Shown: positions 28,350 to 36,056 of the stretch, piece by piece
How positions within the stretch are numbered: position 1 is the stretch's first letter
How the letters are laid out: each line of letters opens with the position of its first letter
Assembly: GCA_016868915.1 (NCBI GenBank)
Contig: VGFL01000015.1
Location: forward strand, 1-36,056
Direction: 5' to 3'
DNA: 36,056 nucleotides
Origin: Bacteroidota bacterium
GTDB lineage: Bacteria > Bacteroidota > Bacteroidia > Flavobacteriales_D > Crocinitomicaceae
Notes under the pieces: model-generated
The model's database searches: none
What the model saw: only the letters and a program-made list of their open reading frames with translations
Told to the model about the DNA's origin: nothing
Made by a program: the position numbers and the translations under genes

Positions 28350-29081
28350 TTAGCCTTGCTTACTTTGATTTTTGTAATCATTGATTTCATCAAGAAATTC
28401 AATATTTCCTTCAATGTAATTACCGATGACTACGATATTTGCCCCTGCATCATGTAATTTACGAATATTTGAAATTGATTTTACACCACCTCCAACGATT
28501 AAAACGGTATCTAGTTTAGATATTCTTTTTATCACAGATTTTGGGATAATTCTTCTTGCTCCACTTCCTGCTTCTAAATAGGTTACGGTATGCCCCAAGA
28601 GTTTACCGGCAAGAGCCGTTTTGAATATTAGATTTGGATTTTCAATTGGAATAGGTTTTGTTTTACTGACCTTTGAGACACTACTTTGGGATAATCCGTC
28701 AATCAATAGGTAAGAGGTTGCGATACATTCGAGTTTCATTCGATATATTTTTTCAGCGGCCTCAATTTGGCTCTCAATTAAATAATAAGGATTTCTTCCA
28801 GAAATTAGACTCAAAAAAAGTATCGCATCAGCCTTACTAGATACTTGATCTGGTGAGCCAGGAAAAATAATAATGGGTTTTTTGAAATGTTTTTTAAGGA
28901 TTTTAAGTGTACTTTCTATTTGTATATTATTCGATGTGCTTCCTCCTACAAATAAAAAGTCTACTTGGCATTCACTTATTTTTTTTGAAAATTCCTCGAA
29001 GTTTAAGTCCTTTTCAGGGTCTATCAAGATAGCGATAGAATTTTTTGCCTCCTGAATTAGTTTTTGAATTTTAATTTTCAC
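28350..29081 (-). CDS. Geranylgeranylglyceryl (heptaprenylglyceryl) phosphate synthase
   Basis: A 243-residue TIM-barrel prenyltransferase that joins a polyprenyl diphosphate to the sn-3 hydroxyl of sn-glycerol-1-phosphate. The Mg/diphosphate-binding aspartate is D21 in ILIDPEKD; VGGSTSNN at 45-52, the phosphate-binding YLEAGSGA at 168-175, VGGGVKS at 196-202 and VIGNYIEGN at 218-226 complete the signature. In archaea this makes ether lipids; the bacterial group I/II enzymes of Flavobacteria are active, but their lipid is poorly known. The start codon is GTG at 29081, inside the phosphopantetheinyl transferase gene (11-nt overlap). Confidence 0.92.
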   Translation of the reverse strand: MKIKIQKLIQEAKNSIAILIDPEKDLNFEEFSKKISECQVDFLFVGGSTSNNIQIESTLKILKKHFKKPIIIFPGSPDQVSSKADAILFLSLISGRNPYYLIESQIEAAEKIYRMKLECIATSYLLIDGLSQSSVSKVSKTKPIPIENPNLIFKTALAGKLLGHTVTYLEAGSGARRIIPKSVIKRISKLDTVLIVGGGVKSISNIRKLHDAGANIVVIGNYIEGNIEFLDEINDYKNQSKQG

Positions 29082-29658
29082 TTGTGGTATTGAAGACGAT
29101 TATATTATTGTCGAATTCAAAGGTATTAAATTCAATTTTTTTAGTAGGTGTTTTTGTCCGAAAACCGATCCATTTATTAAGTTCTAACTTTTTTACTCTT
29201 AAATCATTTTTTAGGTTGAGAGTTTTATCATCATACAATTTAATAAGTGCCTCCTTGATTCCCCAAATTTTTATTTTATCCGATAAAGAATCGATAAAAC
29301 TCGCCTCCTCTTTATCGTGAATAAATCTTGTTTCAATTCTTGTAATACGGGCGGTAATTTCTTCAATATCTAGGCCAATATTAAAATTAAAATTCCAGGC
29401 AATGCCAATTAAGCTTTTACTGTGACTAATTGAAATGTAGGCTCCTTTATCAAGACGTGGTTTGCCATTATTATTATACTTAAGAGTGTAATTGGGTAAG
29501 AAATTGGAAATCAAAAATTTCACACCTTGTATTTCAATAAATCGATCTGATACTTCTCGAATTTTTAGATCTTTTTCACGCACAAAGAAATCTTTGCATT
29601 CATCTTTTCTGATAAAGGCAAAATTTACATTATCAACTGAAAAGTGCGTTGTATTCAT
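29071..29658 (-). CDS. 4'-phosphopantetheinyl transferase superfamily protein
   Basis: A 195-residue enzyme expected to transfer the phosphopantetheine arm of coenzyme A to a serine of a carrier protein. The core motifs are SISHS (76-80), the magnesium-binding GLDIEE (95-100, D97 and E99) and WGIKEALIKL (132-141, with E136). The size is that of a Sfp/EntD-like or single pseudo-dimer protein. It is the first gene of the block and overlaps the GGGP synthase by 11 nt. This pairing occurs in other Bacteroidetes. The promoter box lies 4 nt from its ATG. Confidence 0.9.
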   Translation of the reverse strand: MNTTHFSVDNVNFAFIRKDECKDFFVREKDLKIREVSDRFIEIQGVKFLISNFLPNYTLKYNNNGKPRLDKGAYISISHSKSLIGIAWNFNFNIGLDIEEITARITRIETRFIHDKEEASFIDSLSDKIKIWGIKEALIKLYDDKTLNLKNDLRVKKLELNKWIGFRTKTPTKKIEFNTFEFDNNIIVFNTTSEN

Positions 29659-29803: not shown

Positions 29804-32800
29804 ATGATTAAAAAAATTATTCTTTCTGTTGTAATTGTTTTACTGACAATTACTTATTCATTTTCTCAAACAGGTCTTGGAATTGTAAAAGGTTCTGTAA
29901 TTGATGAAAAGACAAAAACCGGACTTGAGTTTTGTAAAGTTTTATTAATCTTAAACGGATCAACAAAGGCTGGTGCAACGACAGATGAAAAAGGTGAGTT
30001 TCAAATAAACAGCGTTAACCCTGGAACATATGATGTTGAAGTCAGGAGTAGTGATGGATATCAACCATTCAAACTGACTGGTTTCAAGGTAATTGGGGAT
30101 AAAATCTCTTTTTTAGATAAAATTGAGATGAGCAAACCAAAAGATGTCAAGGAGCTCGAGGAATTTAAAATTGTAATCTATAAAGTACCGCTAATTGATA
30201 AGGACGGGGGATCATCAGGAGGTACGGTGACGAGGGAGGATATAGGAAGGCTACCGGTACGTTCGGCTGCCGGTGTTGCGCAAACTGTTGGTGGTGTGAA
30301 CTCCAATGAAGGAAGTGGTGAAATTTCTGTTCGTGGAGCTCGTCCAGATGGCACTTACTTTTACATTGATGGTATAAAGGTTCGTGGTTCATCAAACTTA
30401 CCAAAGTCGGCCTTAGAAGAAGTTTCTGTCATTACGGGAGGAGTTCCGGCAAGTTATGGTGATGTTACTGGAGGTATTATTGCGGTAACAACTCGAGGTC
30501 CATCAGCAAAATATTTTGGAAGTATTGAAGCGGTAAGTTCGGGTGTTTATTTTAAAGGCTCCGACCCGAATGGTTATGATGGGAAAGTTTTCGGTTTGGA
30601 TAAATTTGGTTATAACCTTTTTGAAGGTATGTTATCAGGTCCAATATTGATGCAAAAAGATTCAACCGGAAAGAAAACCAAAGCTTTATTGGGTTTCTTG
30701 GCCTCTGTCAATTACACGAATGAGTTGGACAATCGTCCGTTAGCGGGTGGTAGCTACAGAGTTAAAAAAGAGGTTCGAGATGATTTGTTAGCTAATCCAT
30801 TGAGACCAACCTCAACTGGTTTTGGTACATTTCATAACGCTTTATTTCTGCGCCAGTCTGATTTTGAAAAAACTCCTTGGAGAATGAATTCGGGTACGAG
30901 TGTTTTATCCGGTCAGTTTAAGATTGATGTTAATACCGGGCCAACGGTGAATCTTACCTTTGGTGGTTCATTGAATTATGGCCAGGGAAGAAATTACAGC
31001 TATGGAAGTTCGTTACTAAATTTTTCGAATTATGGTTTTTATAAATCGTTAGATTGGAGAGTTTTTGGGCGCTTAACACAACGTTTTGTCAACAATTCTC
31101 AAGGATCTGCCTCTAAAATTAAGTCTGCAAATTACAATCTCATGGTTGACTATTCTCGTTCGACCGATGATTTTTATGATGCCAATCACAAATATAATAT
31201 TTTTAATTACGGTCATGTTGGAAAATTTACAACAACTAGAAGACCTTCCTACGAATTTGATCCTGTTACTCAGACTTATATACACAATGGTTTTAGGGAT
31301 GTAGAAGTTGCTTTTACTCCTTCGGAAACAAATCAAGCGTTAGCCGCTATTACTACACAATACTACGATATTTACGCGGGTAATCCAGAAGGAAGGTTTG
31401 AAAATTTATTCCAAATACAACAAGGAAATGCTTTGAGAAATGGTGATTCACCGTCTTCGGTTTATGGAATTTGGAGCAATATAGGTTCGCCTTATAATGG
31501 ATTTGGTAAGTCTGAAAATAATCAGTTTCGTGTGACTGGTTCTGGTGCTGTTTCTATTGGAGATCATAATATCTCATTGGGTTTTGAATTTGAGCAGCGT
31601 GAGGATAGGGGTTGGACAAGTGGTGATTTTGGGCCAGTTGGTATTTGGTCCATTGCCCGTCAACTTGCCAACTTTCACATTCGGGAATTGGATTTAAATA
31701 GTGGTGTTTTATCAGATTCAGGTTCATTTAAGGCAATCACCTACCAAAGACTTAATTCAGGAAATGCATTCGCGTCAGGAATAAACGAGTATGGAGGTCA
31801 ACAATTTAATGATAATCAATCCTTTTTTGATTACAATTTACGTCAGTACCTTTATGAACAGGGACTAATCTCTCAAAATGGAAGCGGCTATGATTTTATA
31901 GATATTGATAAATATGACCCAAACATATTTAAACTAAGTATGTTTTCTCCGGATGAATTGTTGAATCAAGGCCAATCATTTGTCTCATACTGGGGTTATG
32001 ACCATACTGGAAAAAGAGTGAAAGGAAACACCGATATAAATAAGTATTTTAACGAATTTGATGAGAATGGCAATTACAAGCGTTTTGTTGGTGCATTTCA
32101 ACCGGTTTACATGGCTGGCTACTTAATGGATAAATTTGCCTTTAGAGATATCGTGTTTAATGTTGGTGTTCGCGTTGATATTTTTGACGCCAATCAGCCA
32201 GTTTTGAAGGACCCGTATTTATTTTTTAATGCTCTTAGTGTCAAGGAAGCTAGAGCCTTGAAAGAGTCTGATCCAAATACCTACTCTTGGGTAAACTTAC
32301 CCGAAGGGATGGGAGATGATTACATTGTCTATGTTAACGATGTTAATAACCCAACTGCTATTAATGGATTTCGTACGGGAATGAATTGGTTCAATTCAGT
32401 TGGTACGCCTGTTGAGGATCCAAAAGTGATAAGAGGATCAGCCGGAATTTCGCCATGGCTTGTTGATCCATCTCAAGAAAATCCAAACGAGACTGCTTTT
32501 GAGGATTATAAACCTCAAGTGAATGTTATGCCTCGTATAGCTTTTTCGTTTCCAATATCTGATAATGCATCCTTTTTTGCACATTACGATATCTTAACGA
32601 AAAGACCTACAACCGGTTTTAGATTTAATCCTTATGAATATCAATTTATTCAATCAAGAAATGCAATTATAAATAACGCGAACCTCAAGCCTGAAACAAC
32701 GGTTGATTATGCACTCGGTTTCCAGCAGGTTCTATCAAAAACGTCTTCTCTGAAAATTGAGGCTTTTTACCGCGAACAGAGAAATAATGTACAATTAATA

Positions 32801-33574
32801 AATATGTTTGAGGCTTACCCTGCAACATATAGAACCTTTGGAAATCGTGACTTTGGAACTGTGAAAGGGTTGACCGTTTCTTATGATCTCCGTCAGACAG
32901 GAAATGTTCGATTGACCGCTGCTTACACTCTTCAATTTGCTGATGGAACTGGTTCAAATGCAACTACTGCGGCTGGTCTTGTTAATGCCGGTTTACCAAA
33001 TTTGAGAAGTATTTTTCCATATGACTTTGACCAAAGACACGCCTTTAATATTTCTTTAGACTATAGATATGGAGAAGAAGATTATAATGGTCCAATTATA
33101 GGAGATTTCAAGGTTTTAAAAAATACGGGCTTAAATATTTTTACAAATATTAATTCTGGATCACCGTATTCAGCACAAACCTTTATCACAGATGAAGGAA
33201 TAGGAAATTTAAATGCTGGATTAAATGGAACTTTAAATGGTTCGCGTTTACCATGGACATATCGCTTAGATGTACAATTAGACAGAACGTTCAACATTGA
33301 ATTTGGGAAGGATAAAAATAAAGCGAAAGTTACTTATTTGAATGTTTATGTTCGTGTTACTAATTTATTTAATCAATTTAATGTGTTAGGCGTATACAGA
33401 GCAACAGGAAATTGGGATGATGATGGTTATTTGGCTGCGGCGGCAAGTCAGACATCAATTCAAAACCAAATAGATGAAGAAGCTTTCAGAGATTACTACG
33501 CAATGAAAGTACAGAACCCATTTAATATCAGTATCCCAAGAACCATTCGTCTAGGGATTAAATTTGATTTTTAA
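29804..33574 (+). CDS. TonB-dependent receptor with carboxypeptidase-regulatory-like domain
   Basis: A 1256-residue outer-membrane transporter, longer than typical siderophore receptors. The signal peptide (MIKKIILSVVIVLLTITYSFS) is followed by a carboxypeptidase-regulatory-like domain (about 25-105: GIVKGSVIDEKTKTGLEFC), then the plug (about 130-245, with SVRGARPDGTYFYIDGIK and ASYGDVTGGIIAVTTRG) and a large barrel ending in an aromatic residue (IKFDF). The frame can be extended upstream to a TTG at 29771, but the ATG at 29804 gives a proper signal peptide. The gene 20 nt downstream encodes a secreted protein and is probably its partner. The ligand is unknown; no SusD-like lipoprotein is visible. 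Confidence 0.9.
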   Translation: MIKKIILSVVIVLLTITYSFSQTGLGIVKGSVIDEKTKTGLEFCKVLLILNGSTKAGATTDEKGEFQINSVNPGTYDVEVRSSDGYQPFKLTGFKVIGDKISFLDKIEMSKPKDVKELEEFKIVIYKVPLIDKDGGSSGGTVTREDIGRLPVRSAAGVAQTVGGVNSNEGSGEISVRGARPDGTYFYIDGIKVRGSSNLPKSALEEVSVITGGVPASYGDVTGGIIAVTTRGPSAKYFGSIEAVSSGVYFKGSDPNGYDGKVFGLDKFGYNLFEGMLSGPILMQKDSTGKKTKALLGFLASVNYTNELDNRPLAGGSYRVKKEVRDDLLANPLRPTSTGFGTFHNALFLRQSDFEKTPWRMNSGTSVLSGQFKIDVNTGPTVNLTFGGSLNYGQGRNYSYGSSLLNFSNYGFYKSLDWRVFGRLTQRFVNNSQGSASKIKSANYNLMVDYSRSTDDFYDANHKYNIFNYGHVGKFTTTRRPSYEFDPVTQTYIHNGFRDVEVAFTPSETNQALAAITTQYYDIYAGNPEGRFENLFQIQQGNALRNGDSPSSVYGIWSNIGSPYNGFGKSENNQFRVTGSGAVSIGDHNISLGFEFEQREDRGWTSGDFGPVGIWSIARQLANFHIRELDLNSGVLSDSGSFKAITYQRLNSGNAFASGINEYGGQQFNDNQSFFDYNLRQYLYEQGLISQNGSGYDFIDIDKYDPNIFKLSMFSPDELLNQGQSFVSYWGYDHTGKRVKGNTDINKYFNEFDENGNYKRFVGAFQPVYMAGYLMDKFAFRDIVFNVGVRVDIFDANQPVLKDPYLFFNALSVKEARALKESDPNTYSWVNLPEGMGDDYIVYVNDVNNPTAINGFRTGMNWFNSVGTPVEDPKVIRGSAGISPWLVDPSQENPNETAFEDYKPQVNVMPRIAFSFPISDNASFFAHYDILTKRPTTGFRFNPYEYQFIQSRNAIINNANLKPETTVDYALGFQQVLSKTSSLKIEAFYREQRNNVQLINMFEAYPATYRTFGNRDFGTVKGLTVSYDLRQTGNVRLTAAYTLQFADGTGSNATTAAGLVNAGLPNLRSIFPYDFDQRHAFNISLDYRYGEEDYNGPIIGDFKVLKNTGLNIFTNINSGSPYSAQTFITDEGIGNLNAGLNGTLNGSRLPWTYRLDVQLDRTFNIEFGKDKNKAKVTYLNVYVRVTNLFNQFNVLGVYRATGNWDDDGYLAAAASQTSIQNQIDEEAFRDYYAMKVQNPFNISIPRTIRLGIKFDF

Positions 33575-33594
33575 TACGTAGAAAAAAGAAAAAT

Positions 33595-36056
33595 ATGAAA
33601 AAGCATTTAATTGCACTTTTAATTGGCATCACTTTCATTTCATCAGATGCTTTGGCCTATCTCGGGCCGAATGATAAAAGTAACAAACCTCAAAATAAGC
33701 CTAAGGGTGCAAATTGTAGTCCGGCAACGGCTAAATTATTCATGGAGTTTAACGACGTAAAGGCATTAATTGAACAGGGTGGTAGTATGTTTCAAAATAG
33801 ACAAGCGGGAGTTGCGTCATATGAGATTCCAAAAAATAGTGGTCTTCACGTAATCTTTGCTGGGGCCCTTTGGATGGGGGGAACGGACGTTAATGGTCAG
33901 TTAAAACTTGCGGCTTTAAGGTATCGTCAGGGAAATGATTTTTGGCCTGGTCCACTTACTGTAAACCCTGGTTCAGGGACCTTTGATCCAGGTGCTCCTG
34001 TTGGTGATGATGCCACAAGAGATTTTGGTGAGGCCAATATAGATCCTGATCAATGTCTAGCTTATGATAAATTTTACACCATCAGGAAAGCTGAAGTTAT
34101 TCGATTTAATATTTGGTGGGAATGCAATAACGGAATAGTCACTGAAGGATGCTCGGATATCACTCCTCCCACTAATGACGAATTAAATCGTATTTATGGA
34201 TGGCCTGCGCATGGTGATGTGTCTCGAGGACAAGATTATTTTTTAGCGCCGTTTTATGATAGAGATGCGGATGGAAATTACAATCCCGATCAAGGTGATC
34301 ATCCATGGTATGATGATATTCTAGGAAGGGATGATATTGAATGTGGTATTGATCGCCGGATTTCTTTGTTCGGTGATGAGACTCATTGGTGGGTATTTAA
34401 TGATAAAGGAAATATTCATACTGAAACAAATGGAGATCCGATAGGTATGGAGATTCGCGCACAAGCCTTTTCATTTGCTACGAATGACGAAATCAATAGA
34501 ATGACTTTTTATAATTATGAATTGATTAACCGCGGTACTCAAACACTTTATGATACCTATTTTTCGCAATATTTGGATGCGGATGTTGGTAACTACGCTG
34601 ACGATTACACGGGTTGTGATGTTTCTAGAGGTCTGGGATATATGTACAATGGAGATTTAAATGATGAAAGTGACGGTGGTCGTCCAGGTTATGGTGAGAA
34701 CCCCCCAGCTGTTGGATGTGATTTCTTTGAAGGACCTTATCAGGATGCCGATGGTGTTGACAATGTTGGGCCATACATTGATAATGCAACTCAAACTCTG
34801 ATAACACCTACTGTGACTGATGCGCTTGCCAACGGCGGAATCGTATACAGGGGAATTGGTATTGGGTACAGTGATGGTATTATTGATAACGAACGTTTCG
34901 GTATGCGTCGCTTTACTTACTATACATCGACCTCTGCTTATCCATACAATGACCCAGGTCCTGCGGCTGAATATTACAACTTTATGAAGGGTAATTGGGC
35001 AAATGGTTCGCAAATGTTCTACGGAGGTTTGGGTTACACGGGGTCCAACGGAGTTTCATCAACAGAGTCAAGTTATATGTTTCCAGGATCATCTGATCCA
35101 CTTCAATGGTCAACCAGTGGTCAGGATATGACGGGCGATTTTCCGGATGGATGGGATGAGTCAACAAATAATAACCCTCCCGGCGATAGACGTTTTGTGC
35201 AGTCTGCTGGTCCTTTTACTTTGAAGCCTGGAGCAATAAATAACATTACTGTTGGGATTGTTTATGGTAGAAGTACAGACGGTGGTTTAATGTCATCAGT
35301 AGAGGCTATGAAACGTGCCGATACAAAGGCGCAAGCGTTGTTTGATGCATGTTTTAAAATTTTATCTCCGCCAGATGCCCCTAAAGTGACAATACAAGAA
35401 TTAGAAAATGAGTTAATTCTAATGTTGGAAAATCCTTCATCCTCCAATAACTATCAAGAAAATTACAAGGAATTGGATGAAATTAATATTCCTGATCCAA
35501 CTGTTGACAGGTATTATCGTTTTGAGGGATACCAGATTTTTCAATTAAAAGATGATAAAGTGTCAGTAGCAGATATTTCCGATCCTACAAAGGCAAGACT
35601 CGTGGCACAATGTGATCTTAAAAATGACATTTCGCGACTAATTAATTTTGAATTTGATGAGGCTTTAGGATTTTCAGTTCCTGTTGAAAAAGTTGACGGT
35701 GAAAATAAGGGAATCCGTCATTCATTTAGGATAACGGATGATGCCTTCGCTCAAGGTCAGAGAACCTTAGTTAATCATAAAACATACTATTATGTCGCGA
35801 TTGCATACGCTCACAATGAGTACGGTAAATATGATCCAAACGACCCGGAATTTTTAAATGGGCAAAAAATACCTTATATTTCATCGAGATTAAATTTTGA
35901 TGGAACTGCAATTAGTGCATACGCTGCCGTTCCTCACAATCCAATTCCTGAGGCCGATGGTACAATGCAAATGATTGAATATGGGTCTTCTCCGCAAATC
36001 ACTCGATTGGATGGATACGGCAATGGAAATCGATCTTTAGATTTTACTCCTTCCAC
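33595..36056 (+). CDS. Large secreted protein (partial, C-terminus outside window)
   Basis: An open frame of about 820 codons that runs through the end of the window. The signal peptide MKKHLIALLIGITFISSDALA is cleaved near residue 21. The body is rich in Asp, Gly, Asn and Tyr. A calcium-loop-like stretch DRDADGNYNPDQGD starts at D222, followed by a segment of the type DDYTGCDVSRGLGYMYNGD and YGENPPAVGC. I recall this pattern from large type IX secretion substrates of Bacteroidetes, which end in a sorting domain; that end is not in the window, so secretion by type IX is an inference. It starts 20 nt after the TonB receptor and is likely in the same operon. Function unknown. Confidence 0.85.
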   Translation, partial: MKKHLIALLIGITFISSDALAYLGPNDKSNKPQNKPKGANCSPATAKLFMEFNDVKALIEQGGSMFQNRQAGVASYEIPKNSGLHVIFAGALWMGGTDVNGQLKLAALRYRQGNDFWPGPLTVNPGSGTFDPGAPVGDDATRDFGEANIDPDQCLAYDKFYTIRKAEVIRFNIWWECNNGIVTEGCSDITPPTNDELNRIYGWPAHGDVSRGQDYFLAPFYDRDADGNYNPDQGDHPWYDDILGRDDIECGIDRRISLFGDETHWWVFNDKGNIHTETNGDPIGMEIRAQAFSFATNDEINRMTFYNYELINRGTQTLYDTYFSQYLDADVGNYADDYTGCDVSRGLGYMYNGDLNDESDGGRPGYGENPPAVGCDFFEGPYQDADGVDNVGPYIDNATQTLITPTVTDALANGGIVYRGIGIGYSDGIIDNERFGMRRFTYYTSTSAYPYNDPGPAAEYYNFMKGNWANGSQMFYGGLGYTGSNGVSSTESSYMFPGSSDPLQWSTSGQDMTGDFPDGWDESTNNNPPGDRRFVQSAGPFTLKPGAINNITVGIVYGRSTDGGLMSSVEAMKRADTKAQALFDACFKILSPPDAPKVTIQELENELILMLENPSSSNNYQENYKELDEINIPDPTVDRYYRFEGYQIFQLKDDKVSVADISDPTKARLVAQCDLKNDISRLINFEFDEALGFSVPVEKVDGENKGIRHSFRITDDAFAQGQRTLVNHKTYYYVAIAYAHNEYGKYDPNDPEFLNGQKIPYISSRLNFDGTAISAYAAVPHNPIPEADGTMQMIEYGSSPQITRLDGYGNGNRSLDFTPS

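Follow-up and report, generated by a model that had tools for sequence, protein, structure and literature searches.

The TonB-dependent receptors of Bacteroidota are understood mainly through their lipid-anchored partners. SusC-SusD (RagAB) and BtuB-BtuG are receptor-lid pairs, in which SusD and BtuG are held by a lipid anchor. The type IX secretion system (T9SS) carries proteins bearing a C-terminal domain (CTD) through SprA. Here we describe a locus at the end of a 36,056-nt stretch of DNA from a member of the Crocinitomicaceae (VGFL01000015.1; G000:C15 in our numbering), which is one complete contig and is referred to as the window. A gene for a TonB-dependent receptor is followed by a gene, A, whose product is predicted T9SS cargo and, off the window, by a gene for a barrel of the PorV/PorQ family. 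The receptor-cargo pair belongs to a deeply conserved three-gene unit. Moreover, we show that a middle segment of A has been recurrently homogenised with that of a dispersed paralogue, B, by gene conversion with a mostly fixed edge, the effect being absent or weak in some lineages. This gene-converted segment is a more unusual feature than the receptor-cargo pair.

Surface lipoprotein-receptor complexes are mentioned in the excerpted text of PMC12578637. The locus is like SusCD/RagAB and BtuB-BtuG in that a TonB-dependent receptor with a CarboxypepD_reg domain is encoded together with a large, predicted surface partner; unlike in those systems, the partner would be T9SS cargo by its CTD rather than a lipoprotein, and the unit has a PorV-family barrel in addition. 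By analogy, the unit may work like a receptor-lid pair of the SusCD or BtuBG kind, but it is not one. Another likeness is to PorZ-PorQ. In the available excerpt of PMC10202324, PorZ keeps its CTD bound to PorQ, retention of a CTD on its cognate barrel is suggested, and protection of the CTD through handling by a cognate PorV-like barrel is proposed. Here too a type-A-like CTD, closest to that of PorZ, goes with a PorV/PorQ-family barrel; however, scores stay below the PorZ and PorQ equivalog cut-offs, a TonB-dependent receptor is part of the unit, and the match of the cargo to PorZ is confined to the CTD. Type B CTD cargos with a PorP/SprF-like shuttle, as described in the accessible part of PMC12618676, resemble our locus in having a gene for a shuttle-type barrel directly after the cargo, whereas here the CTD is type-A-like and the barrel belongs to the PorV/PorQ and not the PorP/SprF family. 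Among the titles and abstract openings listed, we found none on this three-gene unit, and no paper joined type IX secretion, a TonB-dependent receptor and gene conversion, in the openly accessible literature, a coverage outside which most subscription journals and all preprints lie.

Conservation and composition of the three-gene unit

In a close set of 80 A loci, receptor sequence lies immediately upstream of the cargo on the same strand in every case, with 22-44 nt between the last aligned receptor codon (stop included) and the cargo start. The A gene is intact in 36 of the 80, and 34 of these have room downstream; the barrel gene follows at 3-32 nt in 29/34. The order-level sample comprised 23 full copies, 17 receptor-linked and six not, and the barrel gene is downstream in all 15 receptor-linked loci with room. 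Receptor, cargo and barrel were found together in 7/7 class- and phylum-level loci, which were chosen among the stronger hits of a profile of the N-terminal (N) part and are not a random draw. The initial annotation had read receptor and secreted protein as a unit different from the SusCD design and had proposed testing whether the pair is kept as neighbours; adjacency and sorting domain (below) bear this out, the adjacency extending from the close loci to order, class and phylum, although the description was incomplete, there being three genes and not two. As to how widely the cargo family is spread, the N-part profile, run on 296 genomes from across the phylum, found relatives in 85 and no match in the other 211, a profile of everything from residue 590 onwards matched 104/198 genomes, mostly via the CTD, and a single-sequence search matched 59/60 genomes, own genome counted, some of these matches being fragments.

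In the window, the receptor gene runs on the forward strand from an ATG at 29804 to a stop ending at 33574 (1256 aa). Pfam places an N-terminal CarboxypepD_reg domain at residues 28-97 (29885..30094, forward strand; 43.2 bits, cut-off 32.3), confirming the carboxypeptidase-regulatory-like domain named earlier, and a Plug domain (PF07715) at residues 141-224 (30224..30475, forward strand; 40.1 bits, cut-off 23.9). There was no SusC/RagA-family model among its NCBIfam matches up to E=1, and a profile search of solved-structure sequences gave no match up to E=0.1. The next gene begins 20 nt downstream, as annotated, with an ATG at 33595. The gap (33575..33594, forward strand) is A-rich, and a separating terminator or promoter was looked for: between 29600 and 33800 there is a single terminator-like site, which falls within the receptor gene (31440), and none between the genes, and promoter-like sites are at shuffle level (14 vs a mean of 14.3 in shuffles).

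The second gene is the 5′ part of A, with 820 codons open to the contig end (33595..36056, forward strand) of about 1,390 in relatives. By eye, its first 21 residues (33595..33657, forward strand) form a Sec-type signal peptide, in agreement with the earlier description of a signal-peptide protein of more than 820 residues. The Asp-rich loop DRDADGNYNPDQGD at residue 222 (34258..34299, forward strand), a possible Ca site, and the DDYTGCD block at residue 336 (34600..34620, forward strand) are both present as described and both contain columns invariant in 37 homologues, which in the block are D336, D337, G340, C341 and D342. The label “Asp-rich” for the whole protein is fair but mild, Asp making up 9.4% of the 820-aa part vs 6.3% of the receptor. 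Unlike the receptor, these 820 aa have no Pfam or NCBIfam match at E up to 1; no SusD model is among the matches to that threshold, so the absence of a SusD partner holds. When the cargo was used in two profile searches against the sequences of solved structures, the best match was the PorZ entry 5m11, at E=0.2.

Intact cargos in relatives are about 1,390 aa long: 33 of 34 translated loci give 1,382-1,415 aa and one 1,424 aa. The type IX sorting domain that the initial annotation proposed to seek beyond position 36056 was sought in these relatives and in the two cargo tails that lie off the window in the same genome, and both tails pass the cut-off of 23 bits for TIGR04183, the one on C117 with 25.8 bits and the one on C37 with 23.6 bits. 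The most likely A tail is C117:3-413, assigned by synteny. In three full-length relatives the best NCBIfam match is the CTD region of PorZ; with the PorZ equivalog NF052228 they score 30.1-39.1 bits, in the CTD region only, against a cut-off of 260. The best structural match of the CTD is also the PorZ CTD (5m11; Foldseek E 4.0e-05, Z 11.5, root-mean-square deviation 2.3 over 87 residues), drawn from a mediocre model of residues 590-1391 of a relative (predicted local distance difference test, pLDDT, 59.4), and the VIA matches listed for that model are all on the CTD (model residues 677-802). By profile and model, then, the cargo is predicted to end in a T9SS type-A-like sorting domain closest to that of PorZ. 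Two T9SS components were searched for in the genome, and both gave matches: SprA with 2329 bits and, on C8, PorV with 181.6 bits (PF19572), a better PorV match than that of the third gene.

That third gene, of about 350 aa in relatives, directly follows a cargo tail in this genome as well (C117:435-1499). It belongs to the PorV/PorQ family by NF033709 (145.8 bits vs a cut-off of 90) and scores below the equivalog cut-offs for PorV (83.2 of 250 bits), PorQ (87.2 of 220) and PorV2 (53.3 of 325).

Shorter relatives of the cargo, of about 500-650 aa and with the N part only, occur in many related genomes, often at 36-43% identity and once beside a full copy (for example G003:C9:95396-96274 and L132:2410-4203 in G046). 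A further copy, at G054:C1:2983090-2985383, is in two pieces, the second with an internal TGA and TAA, and is probably a decayed gene.

Gene conversion between the cargo gene and its paralogue

The assembly breaks in a repeat here and so truncates the cargo gene of the window. The last 127 nt of the window, 35930..36056 (forward strand), are also the last of C105 and form the first part of a segment common to A and B that begins at codon ~779 (change-point residue 778.3). Moreover, C117 and C37, which hold the two different tails, start with another common 127 nt. These contig ends are likely those of a k=127 assembly graph with one collapsed node between, a node that was searched for in the bin and not found. 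It therefore appears that the segment is probably identical in A and B of this genome, between codon ~779 and a point close to where the CTD begins. In 44/80 close loci the contig stops no more than 1,464 nt past residue 820; for comparison, it starts within 1,464 nt before the gene in 5/80. Gene conversion probably also explains these breaks. Paralogue B (C105:2545-4866) is 58% identical to A in protein and follows, by eye, AAA-ATPase-like and acyltransferase-like genes, with no receptor. A receptor is absent upstream of B in 23/23 B loci of the genus with upstream sequence, and a linked barrel is absent in 7/8 loci with an intact end.

We compared 24 A/B pairs from 23 genomes of the genus. 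Within genomes, the N part (residues 60-760) has a median DNA identity of 59.9% (58.4-62.6; 23 pairs of >900 nt), and the segment (residues 790-1255) one of 85.2% (71.4-99.9; 12 pairs of >450 nt). The other 12 pairs overlap by 15-330 nt of segment with 83-100% identity and come from assemblies broken at the repeat, which biases them towards high identity. Between genomes, identity among A copies is 75.3% for the N part (378 pairs) and 67.0% for the segment (136 pairs), and A-B identity for the segment is 66.8% (243 pairs). Paralogues are thus closer to each other in the segment than A copies are between genomes. Four-fold sites behave in the same way: medians within genomes are 33.8% for the N part (24 pairs) and 74.7% for the segment (17 pairs), and for A between genomes 39.7% and 33.9% (171 pairs), respectively.

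The shared segment spans ~1.5 kb, codons ~778-1307. Its start falls at residues 776-782 in 18/24 pairs (796-837 in the others) and its end at 1306-1308 in 5/7 pairs, the other two ending at 1012 and 1268. The N-part tree splits A from B with 100/100 support and a single label change (30 rows), whereas the segment tree has 10 label changes against a mean of 10.5 in shuffles, 244 of 500 shuffles being as low (31 rows); A and B are sisters there in 5 of 11 two-copy genomes (G002, G004, G016, G017 and G020). A clean split on one side and a scrambled tree on the other show that the segment has been converted recurrently. In G017 a single 2.2-Mb contig carries both copies, at a distance of 214 kb from each other; they differ by ~38% in the N part while being 99.9% identical over 1392 nt of segment. 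At the other end, G003 has a weak step, with 71.4% identity in the segment and a change-point at 837. G013 has two different B-type copies, on C14 and C33; where the segment begins, one matches A at 98.5% over 264 nt and the other at 83.1% over 189 nt.

Beyond the genus, G041 (family f6) and G044 (f9, with ~120 aa of segment compared) show the same step to within 60-aa bins. It is absent from the order-level pairs of G037, G038 and G046, which we count against its generality. The order-level N tree does not separate A and B cleanly: it has five label changes, the A copy of G041 falls with B rows, and the two copies of each of G037, G038 and G046 are sisters; several duplications therefore look lineage-specific. 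Both parts of the gene are under strong purifying selection, the median ratio of nonsynonymous to synonymous change (dN/dS) being 0.023 for the N part and 0.050 for the segment, values that come partly from saturated dS. The protein of the segment changes about twice as fast as that of the N part (median dN ratio 2.1, 29 close pairs). In G004 the two segments differ at 24% of synonymous sites, with a nonsynonymous difference of 0.00.

Segments shared in this way recall two described cases. The gingipains RgpA, Kgp and HagA of Porphyromonas gingivalis, as given in the accessible part of PMC5266723, are T9SS cargos that have identical sequence after an N-terminal part and defeat automated assembly. 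Their identity within and between genes is that of repeated adhesin modules behind protease domains (same excerpt); unlike in gingipains, here it is one segment of ~530 aa, shared with an unlinked paralogue and with an edge common to several families. The excerpt of PMC6053082 treats long-lasting concerted evolution in prokaryotes, in which paralogues are likewise closer within than between genomes, and gives concerted evolution of outer-membrane protein genes as known on short time scales. There it is reported gene by gene; here only a stretch inside the gene is affected, the sequence to either side of it diverging.

The tails of A and B may also be exchanged. In loci with room, A-type tails are always followed by the barrel gene and B-type tails never. 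Five loci (L046, L069, L073, L078 and L107) join an A N part to a B tail and are then followed, by eye, by superoxide-dismutase-like and MgtE-like genes. The same first downstream gene is found in 4 of 8 B loci with tail and flank (L120, L122, L126 and L156), of which L120 and L156 also have the MgtE-like gene second; the remaining B loci have different neighbours. L077 has a B-type tail as well, with only 48 nt beyond. The reverse chimera is L154 (G014:C2), in which a B-type N part carries an A-type tail and a PorV-family gene. Such loci are either real crossovers or misassemblies. In G004 and G025 the two copies are inverted repeats that point away from each other at a distance of 16-17 kb, and crossing over between them would therefore invert the stretch between.

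Interpretation and alternatives

We consider the chances evenly balanced that the unit is a receptor with a T9SS-exported surface partner held by its own PorV-family barrel, a dispersed second copy of the partner being homogenised with it in the middle segment. The cargo would be exported by Sec, have its type-A-like CTD recognised and go through the SprA translocon. The PorV-family barrel encoded beside it would most likely be its dedicated shuttle or anchor, as PorQ is for PorZ. The large N-terminal part would then be placed on the cell surface, next to the receptor or above it, and capture a ligand, in the role of SusD or BtuG; the initial annotation had likewise suggested that the secreted protein could be a ligand-binding partner of the receptor. 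As the segment is the same in A and B and the last part of the CTD is not, the segment should face a partner common to both. On the simplest functional reading, A and B would each have to show the same middle domain, either to one another or to a partner that they have in common, and the CTD ends may face different shuttles. If the reading is right, receptor, T9SS cargo and PorV-family barrel link two big outer-membrane systems of the phylum, and type A cargos are provided with an exception to the rule that they all use one PorV (PMC12618676, excerpt). Segment-limited conversion with the same edge in several families would also be a natural way to ask if two exported proteins need matching middle domains. 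A bolder version, which we regard as quite unlikely, has the type A cargo and its dedicated PorV-family shuttle forming a stable receptor lid, so that a receptor would gain a surface partner by means other than a lipid anchor, the middle domain serving as an identity module kept the same across the cell by conversion, and the inverted copies of G004 and G025 swapping tails and flanks by crossing over in the manner of a slow switch.

Several observations weigh against the surface-partner reading. The predicted structure of the cargo N part has a mean pLDDT of 34.9 and lends no structural support to ligand binding, and Pfam lists no barrel-domain model on the receptor. TIGR04183 falls below its cut-off of 23 bits in the three full-length relatives (16.8-21.0), as does the Pfam sorting-domain model PF18962 on the tails of this genome (18.7 and 17.3 vs 27). 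B, with neither receptor nor linked barrel, shows that the family does not always depend on them, and the remaining 5/34 intact A loci with room have a B-type tail and flank and no barrel gene; thus either linkage to the barrel is dispensable or these loci are misassemblies. Lastly, the phylum-level cargos are ~1,100 aa long and match mainly in the N core and CTD, so that a great age of the middle segment is unsupported.

The three genes could instead be a co-regulated surface-protein operon and nothing further, the cargo using canonical PorV with the usual cleavage and attachment, the extra barrel being a transport channel, and receptor and cargo forming no complex. The accessible part of PMC12618676 has all type A CTDs recognised by PorV, a separate PorV match of 181.6 bits is present in the genome, and B makes do with a similar CTD and no linked barrel in 7/8 loci. 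We nevertheless think this unlikely, since the phylum-level loci taken preserve the gene order and since, wherever there is room, the type of tail predicts whether a barrel gene follows, as in a cognate pair. Still further from what we expect, and hardly credible, is a SusCD-type uptake system with an unrecognised SusD: the receptor adjoins its partner as in SusCD, but the partner's relatives have a T9SS tail and its signal peptide does not end in a lipobox Cys. SusCD identity was rejected, as no SusD or SusC-family model matches either protein at E up to 1.

The likeness of the A and B segments might also be a neutral by-product of conversion between two long homologous copies, with an edge where homology becomes too low and a sameness that is not functional. 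This explanation falls a little short of probable in our view. An edge at 776-782 in 18 of 24 pairs is what self-reinforcing divergence would leave, identities from 71% to 100% are those of intermittent conversion, and three order-level pairs have no step. Against it stand the recurrence of the edge at the same place in three families (f1, f6 and f9, within 60-aa bins and for f9 over only ~120 aa) and the excess of synonymous over nonsynonymous difference in the G004 segment. That identical segments are artefacts of metagenome assembly or binning is very improbable. The records are mostly metagenome assemblies, contigs end in the segment at 44/80 A loci and chimeric joins are present; however, collapse cannot produce the intermediate identities (71-86%) of complete-segment pairs, nor the two copies on a single contig of G017, nearly identical in the segment and far apart in the N part.

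Neighbouring genes and sample names

Upstream of the receptor gene and divergent from it lie a PcrB-family gene (28350-29081, reverse strand) and a 4′-phosphopantetheinyl-transferase-like gene (29071-29658, reverse strand). By eye, similar-looking genes precede the receptor in L094 and L103. Contigs with the same gene in L042, L080, L102 and others bear titles naming Chryseobacterium gleum, Polynucleobacter and Sphingomonadales, and the names of these metagenome-assembled genomes look unreliable.

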